Positions 11,052-47,601 of a stretch of 64,000 nt of DNA are shown piece after piece. This DNA is from Thermococcus barophilus MP (GTDB lineage Archaea; Methanobacteriota_B; Thermococci; Thermococcales; Thermococcaceae), in assembly GCF_000151105.2 (NCBI RefSeq), contig NC_014804.1, forward strand, positions 372,001-436,000, in the 5' to 3' direction. The position numbers were made by a program, and so were the translations under genes. The first letter of the stretch is position 1, and the number at the start of each line of letters is the position of its first letter. Below the pieces are notes generated by a model. The model saw only the letters and a list, made by a program, of their open reading frames with translations. It was not told the DNA's origin and made no database searches.

Positions 11052-13784
<2,733 letters not shown>

Positions 13785-13788
<4 letters not shown>

Positions 13789-14021
13789 TTTCTTCTACCC
13801 GGCCTAAGGTAGTAATCAATTATCTTTTCCACCTCTCTGCTCATCCCCTTTCCTCCGAGAGCAATATTCTCTGATGAATATCCGAGTATCTTTATTGCCA
13901 AGGCTCTGTTGGCTGTGTATACCTCATAGAGCTTGTAATTTAATGATGACATCTGTTTGGTCAGTTCTAACAATTCCAGCTGGACTTCATTTGTTGCTTC
14001 TCTCTTTTCGTAGCTTTTCAT
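13785..14021 (-). CDS. small coiled-coil protein, fluoride operon (78 aa)
   Basis: 78 residues, not recognised. An N-terminal heptad-rich helix (LELLELTKQMSSLNYKLYEV) is followed by NRALAIKILGYSSENIAL and a C-terminal EKIIDYYL. The last two segments resemble NRNLAIQLSGMIAENKRL and EKLIHYYL of the 137-residue product two genes upstream, so the two look like paralogues, this one lacking the N-terminal domain. Its first 35 bases overlap the 54-codon gene in another frame, and its stop overlaps fluC by ATGA. No membrane segment or known enzymatic motif is visible. Confidence 0.75.
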
Positions 14022-14151
14022 TTTCCTCCCTCAGCCTCTCAAGTTCCCTCAGCAGTATCTCCTGATCTTTTAAAGCTTTTTCATACCTCTCTTTCATCAG
14101 AGCAAGTTCCCGTTTAAGTTGCTTGATAAGCTCGCCTGGGGTTTCATCCAT
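13987..14151 (-). CDS. 54-residue coiled-coil micro-protein, fluoride operon
   Basis: A short frame that is easily missed: ATG 14151 to TGA 13987, 54 codons. The product begins MDETPGELIKQLKREL and is nearly all charged alpha helix with heptad spacing (ending RLREENEKLRKERSNK), a likely coiled coil. The start lies one base after the TGA of the upstream gene (TGAAATG) and the end overlaps the next start by 35 bases, so it is embedded in the operon. The lack of room for any other gene and its codon pattern support it, but no homologue is known to me. Confidence 0.65.
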   Translation of the reverse strand: MDETPGELIKQLKRELALMKERYEKALKDQEILLRELERLREENEKLRKERSNK

Positions 14152-14152
14152 T

Positions 14153-14566
14153 TCATTCACCTTCAAAGCTCAAATAGTAGTGTATGAGCTTTTCTATATC
14201 CCCGTATTCTTTCTCCTCTTTCCCAAGCATCTCTCTCAGCCTCTTGTTCTCGGCTATCATACCTGAAAGCTGAATTGCGAGGTTCCTATTGTCCAGGGCT
14301 ATACCATATGAGGAGAACTTTAAAGGTGACCATTTCCCTTCAAGCTCATAGAGTCTTTCTTCCAGTTCCTTAACTTCTTTTCTTAAAGCTTCCACGTCTT
14401 CTCCCGGATCGTAATCTAAGAATTCTCCCAAAAGAATAATTTTAATGCCTTCCTCAACTCTAAAACCATGTCTCATGCATATCTCCTTTATCTGGTTAAA
14501 CATCTCATCCTCGATGTGAAAGGTGACCTTTCTCCACCCGACTTCAGGTTTTACCACGATTTTCAT
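14153..14566 (-). CDS. small protein with RHH-like N-terminus and coiled coil, fluoride operon (137 aa)
   Basis: 137 residues, unrecognised. Residues 10-50 (WRKVTFHIEDEMFNQIKEI and following) have a strand-helix-helix pattern that could be a ribbon-helix-helix fold, hence possible DNA binding or dimerisation. Residues 58-80 are a coiled coil (ALRKEVKELEERLYELEG). The C-terminal 60 residues resemble the 78-residue product downstream (NRNLAIQLSG, EKLIHYYL). The start overlaps the end of the preceding gene by 23 bases. It might be a regulator of the operon; this is inference. Confidence 0.75.
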   Translation of the reverse strand: MKIVVKPEVGWRKVTFHIEDEMFNQIKEICMRHGFRVEEGIKIILLGEFLDYDPGEDVEALRKEVKELEERLYELEGKWSPLKFSSYGIALDNRNLAIQLSGMIAENKRLREMLGKEEKEYGDIEKLIHYYLSFEGE

Positions 14567-14864
14567 CTCTCTTCATCTCTCTTCTCAGTTCTCTGTTTTC
14601 GATGCTGAGCTTTAATCTAAACTCCTTCATTTTTTCTTTATCTTTCTTCGCTTTTTCGCTGAATTTGAGGAGCATTTGATAATGCTCTTCCATCTCCTTG
14701 AGCTTTTCTTCAAGCCTCCTGCGCTTCTCAAGCAGGTAGTTGATCTCAAGTATTTGGAGCGTTTTTTCGAGTTTTTCAAGCTCATAGAATCTTCTTTTTA
14801 TCTCTTTTTTCTCCTTTCTAATTTTCTGAAATTCGTCGTTGGTGACTCTAATCTCTATTTCCAA
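14544..14864 (-). CDS. coiled-coil protein, fluoride operon (106 aa)
   Basis: About 106 residues from a TTG at 14864, seven bases after GAGGTG; a GTG at 14873 would add three residues. Apart from a short N-terminal strand (EIEIRVTNDEF) the protein is one long Lys/Glu-rich helix with heptad repeats, for example LEKRRRLEEKLKEMEEHYQM, typical of a coiled coil. It contains no enzyme motif. It overlaps the DUF6062-like gene at its 5' end and the 137-residue gene at its 3' end, so translation is likely coupled. Function unknown. Confidence 0.75.
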   Translation of the reverse strand: MEIEIRVTNDEFQKIRKEKKEIKRRFYELEKLEKTLQILEINYLLEKRRRLEEKLKEMEEHYQMLLKFSEKAKKDKEKMKEFRLKLSIENRELRREMKRDENRGKT

Positions 14865-15558
14865 GCAGAACACCTCTGAGAATTGAATGCTGCTTCTGCC
14901 TCTTCACAAAATTTATCTGCAAGGGGAGCCCCTTAAGACTTTCAATTGCCTTGGGAACTGATGATGCTTCCTGTTCGGTTGGTGCCTTGGTTGCCCTGTA
15001 ATCAAACTTCTCAATGAACAGGTGCATTAGGGTTTTTATTTTTTCCAGCTTTCCAATTTGAACTTTCTTAAGTTCTTCTGCAAGCTCTGGGTTTTTTCTT
15101 CTAAGCTTAACTTCAATTTCTTCGAAGTGTTTCTTGCATAGGATTGCCTCAGAGTTCCTGTAGTCTTCAATCAGCTTATCCATTCTATCCACTGTTGCCT
15201 CTACTGTATGCTTTTCTTTGACTTCTGTGAGTTCGCAGAGGTAGCATTTTCCATCTTCAATTTTCTTTTCATCCTTCAGTGCATTGAGATAAATTGAAAG
15301 CATGTGTTCGTAAATTATTGCAACTCCAAGCCCACCATAGAGGGGATTGGAGTATGCAATGTCTTTAAGCTTCCATGCATGATATGGACATAATCCCAGA
15401 CTCTCCGAGAACTTTTCTCGGACACTGGGACTGTTGATATGTTCGTAGAGTATATGCCCGATTACCTCTCTCTCGTACTTTTCAACGATTCTGCAAATAG
15501 GACATCCAGTTCCTTGAAATGCTTCCCTGAGATATATTCCAATCAGATCCATAGCCAT
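14848..15558 (-). CDS. DUF6062-like protein with paired CxxC/CxxH motifs
   Basis: 236 residues. Two similar modules are visible: Cys19-Cys22 (GCPIC) with LCPYHAW about 35 residues later, and CYLCE (about 105) with LCKKHFEEI (about 140). Each CxxC plus CxxH could bind one metal ion such as zinc. This matches the DUF6062 family, whose function is unknown. The C-terminal 60 residues are basic and lack the cysteines. The start is three bases after the stop of the toroid gene, and the end overlaps the next gene, so it is the second gene of the fluoride operon. A redox or metal-dependent scaffold role is possible; nothing more can be said. Confidence 0.8.
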   Translation of the reverse strand: MAMDLIGIYLREAFQGTGCPICRIVEKYEREVIGHILYEHINSPSVREKFSESLGLCPYHAWKLKDIAYSNPLYGGLGVAIIYEHMLSIYLNALKDEKKIEDGKCYLCELTEVKEKHTVEATVDRMDKLIEDYRNSEAILCKKHFEEIEVKLRRKNPELAEELKKVQIGKLEKIKTLMHLFIEKFDYRATKAPTEQEASSVPKAIESLKGLPLQINFVKRQKQHSILRGVLLGNRD

Positions 15559-15561
15559 TCC

Positions 15562-16416
15562 TCAGAAGCTGAGCAGATCATTTAGGGCTCTCAAAGCTCT
15601 GTACGTGTTCTGGAAGTTTGAAATTCCAAGCTCAAGGGATCGTCTGAATCCACCATTGGGATTCTGCAGTGCTCTGATGAATCTTATGTGCTCCTTTATG
15701 TATCTTGGCTTTCTTCCAAGGAGCTTCAATGCTCTTATGGCATAAAACGTTGGTTCGAGGTATGGAGGCAGGGACATTGGGACTTCTGTGAATCCTCCGT
15801 AAACTTCACATTCTTCAAAAAACCTTGTTTTTGGTACTGGATATCCAAGAACATTGAGGGAATATATGGCTTGATACGTCATTGTGACAGTTGGCTGGTT
15901 CACTCCGTAGCCGTTTCCTTTTCTAAAACCTTCTATGAAATCCCTAATCTTTTCTTTCATATCATCTGTGATTTTATAGTTCAGCAGTGAAACAAGCCTC
16001 ATGACCCAATAGGTTGATTCTAATGGAGTTGCTGCTCCAAATTCCTCACTTCCACCTAACCCAACGGAGAACTGTCCCTTCAAGGGATTGTATTTCGCAA
16101 ATATGTATTCAAGCTTTTCTCTCGCCAAATCTTCAGCGCCAAGAATTGCGAGTGCTTCGCCGGCCATTGCTAAAGCAACTGTAGCCCTGTGCGGCTGAGC
16201 AGAGCTATTTAAAAATTCAATTGTTTTTTCTTTCTCTGGAATTTCAAGATTGAGCAGGTCATAGATTTTAACGGCATAGTATGTGTCATTTATATTTGTC
16301 TCGTTCAGCATTGAGACGAAGCAGTAACCGCCATCTTCATGACGCCTCTTTGAGATGTAGTTTATAACAGCATTCAAATTCACATATCTCGCAAGTTCAT
16401 TAAGCTTCGAGCCCAT
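15562..16416 (-). CDS. alpha/alpha-toroid protein (prenyltransferase beta/squalene cyclase-like repeats)
   Basis: 284 residues from the ATG at 16416, which has GGAGG seven bases before it; longer starts lack a site. Repeats with the helix pairs and GGF/GGY turns of prenyltransferase beta subunits are seen: DGGYCFVSMLNETNINDTYYAV, GGSEEFGAATPLESTYWVMRL, GNGYGVNQPTVTMTYQAIYSL and NGGFRRSLELGISNFQNTYRAL. The Zn ligands of true protein prenyltransferases are not evident, so catalysis is uncertain. It is the first gene after the fluoride riboswitch, hence the gene whose translation the switch should control directly. Confidence 0.82.
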   Translation of the reverse strand: MGSKLNELARYVNLNAVINYISKRRHEDGGYCFVSMLNETNINDTYYAVKIYDLLNLEIPEKEKTIEFLNSSAQPHRATVALAMAGEALAILGAEDLAREKLEYIFAKYNPLKGQFSVGLGGSEEFGAATPLESTYWVMRLVSLLNYKITDDMKEKIRDFIEGFRKGNGYGVNQPTVTMTYQAIYSLNVLGYPVPKTRFFEECEVYGGFTEVPMSLPPYLEPTFYAIRALKLLGRKPRYIKEHIRFIRALQNPNGGFRRSLELGISNFQNTYRALRALNDLLSF

Positions 16417-16466
16417 TCTACCGCCTCCTTCCATTTTTATGAGCATGAATGGGTAGAACAGGCGTC
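16416..16466 (-). promoter_or_regulatory. riboswitch expression platform: ribosome binding site and two complementary segments
   Basis: The ribosome binding site GGAGG (minus strand, 16428-16424) is part of AGGCG (16426-16422). This is complementary to CGCCT (16464-16460), which is also the 3' strand of the aptamer pseudoknot. A second pair, TTCTACC (16458-16452) and GGTAGAA (16422-16416), covers the start codon region. The two pairings cannot be nested, so they look like alternatives. Fluoride binding would lock CGCC in the pseudoknot and free the ribosome binding site. The complementarities are visible; the mechanism is inference. Confidence 0.55.
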
Positions 16467-16522
16467 ATCAGCCCTTAACGGGCGGTTCGGGCTCGAAGCC
16501 CGGGCGGACGCCATCGCCCGAC
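16451..16522 (-). ncRNA. fluoride riboswitch (crcB motif)
   Basis: Reading the minus strand from 16522: CGGGCG (16520-16515), loop GATGGCGTC region, CGCCCG (16506-16501) form the first stem. An extra hairpin (GGCTTCGAGCC) follows, at the site where crcB RNAs may carry an optional stem. Then comes GCCC-GTTAA-GGGC (16483-16471), then TGATG and GACGCC. GGCGTC (16512-16507) in the first loop pairs with GACGCC (16466-16461), the signature pseudoknot. The order GGGCGATG / CGCC / hairpin / TGATG matches known bacterial fluoride aptamers. The GC content is far above the surroundings. It lies between the promoter and the first gene of an operon that contains fluC, which confirms the call. Confidence 0.93.
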
Positions 16523-16540
16523 TAAACGTGAGAAAGAAAA

Positions 16541-18014: not shown

Positions 18015-21016
<3,002 letters not shown>

Positions 21017-21039
<23 letters not shown>

Positions 21040-26319: not shown

Positions 26320-26756
26320 GTTCCAATAAGACTCCAAGAGAATTGAAAGTCATTAAGTATCTTATTGCCTCCTCAATCTCCTTTAAAGTGTTCCAATAAG
26401 ACTCCAAGAGAATTGAAAGAAGCACAATTCTTAGAGCAGCAGAATAATGAGTACAGGTTCCAATAAGACTCCAAGAGAATTGAAAGGCTCAAGCAGGCAT
26501 TAGAAGCCATCGGGATGAAGGTTTTGTGTTCCAATAAGACTCCAAGAGAATTGAAAGGCAGGCGAGAAATTCAAACTTTCGTGAGAAGCCTTTCGAGTTC
26601 CAATAAGACTCCAAGAGAATTGAAAGCATAGCCTTTGCATAAGAAATTCTTCCAGTCCTAAAATGTTCCAATAAGACTCCAAGAGAATTGAAAGATTCTT
26701 TGTTTGCAGCATCCCAAAACAGTTTGCGATGTTCCAATAAGACTCTAAATTGAAAC
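26320..26756 (+). CRISPR. CRISPR array, 7 repeats and 6 spacers
   Basis: Repeats are 30 bases, starting GTTCCAATAAG and ending AATTGAAAG, at 26320, 26390, 26457, 26528, 26597, 26665 and 26731. The first six are identical. The last is shortened to about 26 bases with changes (GACTCTAAATTG) and marks the old, leader-distal end. Spacers are 40, 37, 41, 39, 38 and 36 bases, as in type I-A/I-B systems. The direction, with the ATTGAAAG tag of crRNA, is left to right from the leader. The repeat type is the one used by Thermococcales Cas6. Spacer targets cannot be determined here. Confidence 0.98.
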
Positions 26757-47543: not shown

Positions 47544-47601
47544 GCTGTCGGCGATAGCTGGTGTCATCACTTCTCAGTTCCGAAACCGCTCGTCATCCAG
47601 C
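47544..47601 (-). ncRNA. C/D box sRNA (2'-O-methylation guide)
   Basis: Minus strand: a terminal stem GCTG (47601-47598) / CAGC (47547-47544) encloses box C-like GATGA (47597-47593), a 15-base guide, box D' CTGA (47577-47574), a 4-base spacer, box C' TGATGA (47569-47564), a 12-base guide (47563-47552) and box D-like CCGA (47551-47548). The spacing is the archaeal norm. The D guide is complementary to CGATAGCTGGTG, matching the conserved 23S rRNA segment GAUAGCUGGU as I remember it; the methylated base would be the A five positions from box D. The D' guide target was not identified. A TATA-like TTAAAAAAGT lies 24 bases upstream. Confidence 0.75.

Follow-up and report, generated by a model that had tools for sequence, protein, structure and literature searches.

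Operons headed by fluoride (crcB) riboswitches are known mainly for encoding exporters and fluoride-sensitive enzymes. In Thermococcus kodakarensis, a crcB RNA transcript was found upstream of TK0513 and not of the crcB gene TK0514, with a further start site located between TK0513 and crcB (PMC4247193). For a translational riboswitch mechanism in archaea, this 2014 transcriptome study obtained no direct experimental support (PMC4247193). The locus described here resembles crcB riboswitch operons in that an RF01734 aptamer heads an operon with the fluoride channel gene fluC. It differs from them in the addition of genes for an alpha-alpha toroid protein, a DUF6062 protein, and four small coiled-coil proteins (denoted A, B, a, and b), and in a riboswitch that, here in an archaeon, seems to cover both the start codon of the toroid gene and its ribosome-binding site.

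The locus lies in a window of 64,000 nucleotides from Thermococcus barophilus MP (contig NC_014804.1, positions 372,001 to 436,000) and consists of eight tightly packed minus-strand genes, which encode, from first to last, toroid, DUF6062, A, B, a, b, FluC, and DUF190. The toroid gene (15562-16416; Prenyltrans PF00432, Pfam 6.6e-15) has its start placed at 16416 by conservation, the longest open reading frame reaching 16446, and is followed by the DUF6062 gene (14848-15558; PF19538, 5.4e-20). Then come A (14544-14864; 106 residues, TTG start), its putative partner B (14153-14566; 137 residues, with an RHH (ribbon-helix-helix)-like N-terminus preceding a long coiled coil), a (13987-14151; 54 residues), and b (13785-14021; 78 residues, no RHH part). 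The operon ends with the FluC/CrcB fluoride channel (13417-13788; PF02537, 1.2e-28; TIGR00494, 1.7e-27) and a P-II-like DUF190 protein (13031-13420; PF02641, 6e-39). From toroid to DUF190, the junctions are a 3-nt gap, overlaps of 17 and 23 nt, a 1-nt gap, and overlaps of 35, 4, and 4 nt. The four consecutive coiled-coil products that the initial annotation had placed at 13785-14864 are confirmed as frames on this strand; none of them reaches a curated Pfam or NCBIfam family above cut-off. Elsewhere in the window, the CRISPR direct repeat family DR6 is matched six times (26320-26694, plus strand) downstream of a putative gene resembling a CRISPR-associated helicase (18760-21039), and a C/D box small RNA, sR28 (RF01136, 52.8 bits), is present at 47546-47600 on the minus strand.

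Shine-Dalgarno-like motifs are found 5' of A (GAGGTG), a (GGTGA), and b (GGAGG). In the genome comparison, the frames of a and b remain open across 33-60% identity, with Ka/Ks ratios of 0.04-0.24 for stand-alone a-b pairs located outside the operon and of 0.17 and 0.10 for operonic copies of two same-genus genomes; in the closest pair that includes the genome of the window (G000/G005), the ratio of about 0.6-0.8 rests on too few changes to show constraint. This comparative evidence indicates that the small frames are translated genes. The 54-codon gene, expected to escape length cut-offs, is real by this measure, its frame being kept and constrained in stand-alone and some operonic copies, and the earlier observation of the cluster holds, as the frames are conserved in related genomes.

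Since coiled coils inflate the scores of profile comparisons, heptad-preserving shuffles served as control (40 shuffles for B and b). Profiles of B and b match at E=1.3e-13 (score 61.7, shuffle maximum 47), those of A and a at E 2e-9 (52.5, shuffle maximum 37.7), and those of A and B at E 2.1e-6 (coiled-coil score 31.7, shuffle maximum 22.5). Moreover, the N-terminus of A aligns with the RHH part of B over the strand and the first helix (15.2, column-shuffle maximum 13.7), and a direct hhalign comparison of a with b is not significant. These comparisons identify a as a paralogue of the C-terminal part of A, b as a paralogue of that of B, and A and B as related to each other. The paralogy and common motifs of the 137- and 78-residue proteins, noticed before, are thereby beyond chance; the count of two paralogous proteins was right for B and b and too low overall, as A and a form a second pair and A and B are themselves related. 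A first hint of the latter was a MAFFT misplacement, later tested by the shuffle comparison: rows of A were put onto the coiled coil of B in an alignment for structure prediction that used an A-B fusion and was dropped. The b proteins form one clade (bootstrap 95) that takes in operonic and stand-alone copies, which marks b as an old paralogue and no fresh copy of B; the idea that A-B was recently duplicated in tandem within the operon to give a-b is rejected on the same ground. The mirror-tree correlation between A and B (r 0.83-0.90) was disregarded, since it is expected from shared phylogeny alone.

Of 94 Thermococcaceae genomes, 93 carry B, which was not found in any of 21 genomes from other families of the phylum. 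No relatives of B were found among plasmids, phages, and viral contigs, and PHROGs yielded no meaningful match. By these searches, A, B, a, and b constitute one paralogous family that is specific to the Thermococcaceae. Every genus carries a 'core' pair, A'B', at another locus (in genome G000, A' at 900937-901236 and B' at 901244-901633). It is located 3' of an HhH-GPD DNA glycosylase gene in several genera; in the Pyrococcus-like genus (g2), A' and B' mostly lie apart. At one locus (L072, 5827-7637), A'B' follows a 95-aa gene and the glycosylase gene and adjoins NfeD-like/stomatin-like genes, and in some genomes a winged-helix and nucleotidyltransferase gene lies between A' and B' (L084, 6860-7468; L091). 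An extra AB pair, as in the operon described here, occurs in about two thirds of the genomes, with A 5' of B in the extra loci examined. The a-b pair is patchy, strong b matches being found in about a quarter of the genomes. In 23 loci, in one of which a is broken, the gene a lies 5' of b, the two are apparently fused into a protein of 114-115 aa in two genomes, and two more copies are decayed; an intact b always has a before it or fused to it. In genome G015 (L004, 1483-2205, minus strand), A and B share one frame of 240 aa through a one-base deletion in a draft, which may be an assembly error; this fusion was set aside as evidence of interaction.

Multiple paralogues in each genome, copies in decay, and an RHH protein encoded next to a small one might also call to mind type II toxin-antitoxin-like modules, in which an RHH antitoxin has a small partner. 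This is hardly credible for the present family, as A, the partner here, lacks a toxin fold and is one long helix with homology to B, no toxin family of Pfam/NCBIfam is matched above cut-off, the core pair persists in nearly all genomes with its genes mostly apart in one genus, and plasmid or phage matches are absent.

The initial annotation missed a further element of the operon. Upstream of the toroid gene, cmscan detects a fluoride riboswitch aptamer (crcB RNA, RF01734; 16452-16527, minus strand) with 53.2 bits (gathering cut-off 34, E 6.6e-12). The element, named fluoride riboswitch by Rfam, is conserved upstream of the orthologous gene in 17 of 17 aligned leaders, and RF01734 is present in 88 of the 94 family genomes. 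In each of 64 genomes, one copy of B lies 1161-1949 nt downstream of the riboswitch and on its strand; of the 154 copies listed, this leaves 90, essentially core copies, that are not so placed. No common motif is seen by eye between the leaders of the core operon and the fluoride operon. In Pyrococcus-like genomes, the riboswitch heads toroid-A-B, and FluC is located tens to hundreds of kb away. It is thus well supported by position that the extra AB pair belongs to the fluoride regulon. As members of an operon that begins with a fluoride-sensing RNA, the four genes probably take part in the fluoride response of the cell. Genomes with a riboswitch-toroid-FluC layout match the part of the T. 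kodakarensis data in which the crcB RNA lies 5' of TK0513 (PMC4247193), which would make TK0513 the toroid gene. The start site between TK0513 and crcB (PMC4247193) suggests that FluC may not depend entirely on the riboswitch. Stand-alone a-b pairs were also found directly upstream of a second fluoride riboswitch in nine genomes (L109, L164-L166, L168, L169, L171, L172, L175), where, if the contig extends further, this riboswitch is followed by a hydrogenase-type operon gene resembling NuoH (PF00146). The other stand-alone a-b pairs have no riboswitch, so this neighborhood may reflect a shared insertion site rather than function.

The leader also offers a route from aptamer to translation. A riboswitch segment, GCUUCGAGCCC (16489-16499, minus strand), is complementary to the region of the first start codon of the operon, and a second one, ACCGCC (16481-16486, minus strand), is complementary by sequence and predicted fold to the Shine-Dalgarno region GGCGGU; ribosome-binding site and start of the toroid gene, GGCGGU AGAAU GGGCUCGAAGC, occupy 16404-16425 (minus strand). 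Of 69 loci, 66 retain 10-11 standard pairs (G-U allowed) between GCUUCGAGCCC and the start region GGGCUCGAAGC. Among the other three, loss of the segment goes together with an altered start region in two, and only the segment is altered in the third. Toroid codons 2-4 are nearly frozen at synonymous sites across genera (GGC 67/67, TCG 67/69, AAG 63/63), whereas later codons vary freely. The minimum-energy fold pairs GCUUCGAGCCC with the start region, and in the four folded leaders carrying the segment, the start codon region is masked in the ligand-free structure predicted at 37 as well as at 80 °C. Positions 16404-16527 (minus strand) therefore have good support as a candidate archaeal translational riboswitch that would act as a fluoride ON switch, giving a concrete candidate mechanism for this type of control in archaea.

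The earlier proposal that such small proteins next to a channel could form a complex may be read as one with the channel itself, and their genes do sit between toroid/DUF6062 and FluC, with b overlapping FluC by 4 nt. That they serve the FluC channel, or a FluC-DUF190 complex, as accessory subunits is nevertheless very unlikely, because A/B and FluC each occur without the other nearby: FluC-DUF190 is present without intact A, B, a, or b in the AB-less genomes examined, toroid-A-B in the Pyrococcus-like genus has neither FluC nor DUF190 linked to it, and neither core A'B' nor the stand-alone a-b pairs adjoin FluC. A/B and FluC are instead linked by regulation, with the same fluoride riboswitch ahead of both. 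The extra AB pair is constantly accompanied by the toroid gene, Pyrococcus-like genomes included, and the head of B is uncharged overall, which would suit a machine of A:B with the toroid protein, e.g. a scaffold or chaperone for a fluoride-sensitive enzyme, with the RHH-like head used for dimerization only. This, too, is unlikely, considering that core A'B' and stand-alone a-b have no toroid neighbor and that ten of the genomes examined carry the toroid gene without intact AB. DUF6062 is found in 56 of the 94 family genomes, and some genomes show riboswitch-toroid-FluC-DUF190 without AB, with or without DUF6062. Relics of the DUF6062 N-terminus and the B C-terminus persist 3' of toroid at two loci (L187, 1836-2155; L188, 4964-5187) and point to a joint loss of the cassette. 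With many genomes lacking it and two retaining relics only, AB is dispensable there.

AF2 predicts A as nearly one long helix (19-105, pLDDT 90.5) and B as two strands, two helices, a 57-residue helix (58-114), and a C-terminal helix (mean pLDDT 84.6). The N-terminus of B is predicted to adopt a strand-helix-helix arrangement (E14-17, H20-33, H37-46) at moderate to high confidence, in line with the possible ribbon-helix-helix start suggested before. The best Foldseek matches of B include Arc, VapB, CdbA, MatP, AmrZ, and CopG, all at E>1, so that the fold assignment leans on the pattern of matches and on weak profile matches of B members to aCcr1, RHH_1, and RHH_3. The aCcr1 profile gives 20 bits against a cut-off of 60, RHH_1 reaches 1.9e-4 in a single member, and no curated RHH family profile is reached above cut-off. 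Taken together, B probably works like RHH proteins and is probably homologous to them. A gave no Foldseek matches. Sequence searches of the PDB returned GCN4-type and other coiled-coil constructs only for B, and the proteasome-activating nucleotidase and other coiled coils for A, taken as composition matches.

The RHH part of B is not basic (net charge about zero) and could thus serve dimerization only, although this charge alone is not decisive with regard to DNA binding. The combination of an RHH head with a long coiled coil recalls MatP and CdbA, and the core pair is near-universal and adjoins the glycosylase gene in several genera; A:B might accordingly be a structural or nucleoid protein that bridges DNA and protects chromosome or replication under fluoride stress, rather than a gene-specific regulator. 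With fold matches this weak and a head that is not basic, such a role is rather improbable, though the strongest of the competing ideas.

All four proteins share one heptad register, numbered from a common, buried Asn (position 0, heptad position a), in which d positions are nearly all hydrophobic. Asn occupies position 0 in every registered sequence of A, B, and b and in 21 of 22 of a; seven b sequences not caught by the register pattern were left out, some of which, judged by eye, have Arg or Asn at this position. At -14, the residue is again polar, being Asn in B and b, Lys/Arg in A, and Asn/Gln in a. Core a positions of A are charged, with Arg in 31 of 33 sequences (-7) and Lys/Arg in 30 of 33, which should disfavor A:A and fit opposite the Leu and Asn of B. 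There is hence moderate support, from register and charges, for A lying parallel and in register with B in a heteromer, and a hetero-oligomer or regulator, as first proposed, is a likely role. The g-e' charge pairing does not favor a:b over homodimers.

The best explanation as a whole, to which a probability of roughly 0.55 is assigned, is that A and B form a fluoride-induced heteromeric RHH/coiled-coil regulator, of which a:b is a headless variant, the two gene pairs being carried as a cassette in a fluoride-resistance operon. Fluoride binding to the aptamer would free the ribosome-binding site of the toroid gene, and coupled translation via overlapping genes would then yield toroid, DUF6062, A, B, a, b, FluC, and DUF190; both steps have good support. 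A and B would, with moderate support, assemble as a heteromer, their coiled coils parallel and in register and topped by an RHH-type head. Least certain are the final steps, namely that A:B binds DNA or chromatin and acts as a regulator, induced by fluoride, beside the constitutive core A'B', and that a:b, a microprotein-like variant of coiled coil only, modulates A:B by exchange or competition. In the widest form of this scheme, the Thermococcales fluoride response would run from a translational riboswitch to a lineage-specific heterodimeric regulator, with the headless microprotein pair tuning both A:B and the core, as a layer beyond ion export; this is a tentative and somewhat doubtful extension. 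The locus points to an archaeal fluoride response beyond export, and the place of an uncharacterized, almost family-wide protein family in fluoride operons gives this family a testable function.

Three groups of described proteins are closest to the products of the cassette. RHH (Arc/MetJ/CopG) regulators, including aCcr1 (NF053762) and RHH_1 (PF01402), share with B the predicted strand-helix-helix N-terminus, whereas B departs from them by its long coiled coil, by one more strand at the N-terminus, and by a neighboring homologue, A, whose head is reduced. The chromosome-organizing proteins MatP and CdbA possess an RHH head like that predicted for B, followed in MatP by a coiled coil; the coiled coil of B, by contrast, belongs to a two-gene pair. 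Finally, leucine zippers of the bZIP type resemble A, B, a, and b in their in-register heptads, the Asn at position a, the ENxxL motifs, and charged a positions that would steer heterodimers. The family described here has an RHH-like head and no basic region, and the likeness is one of analogy only. Its full-length and headless coiled-coil pairs also provide a compact natural test of partner specificity.
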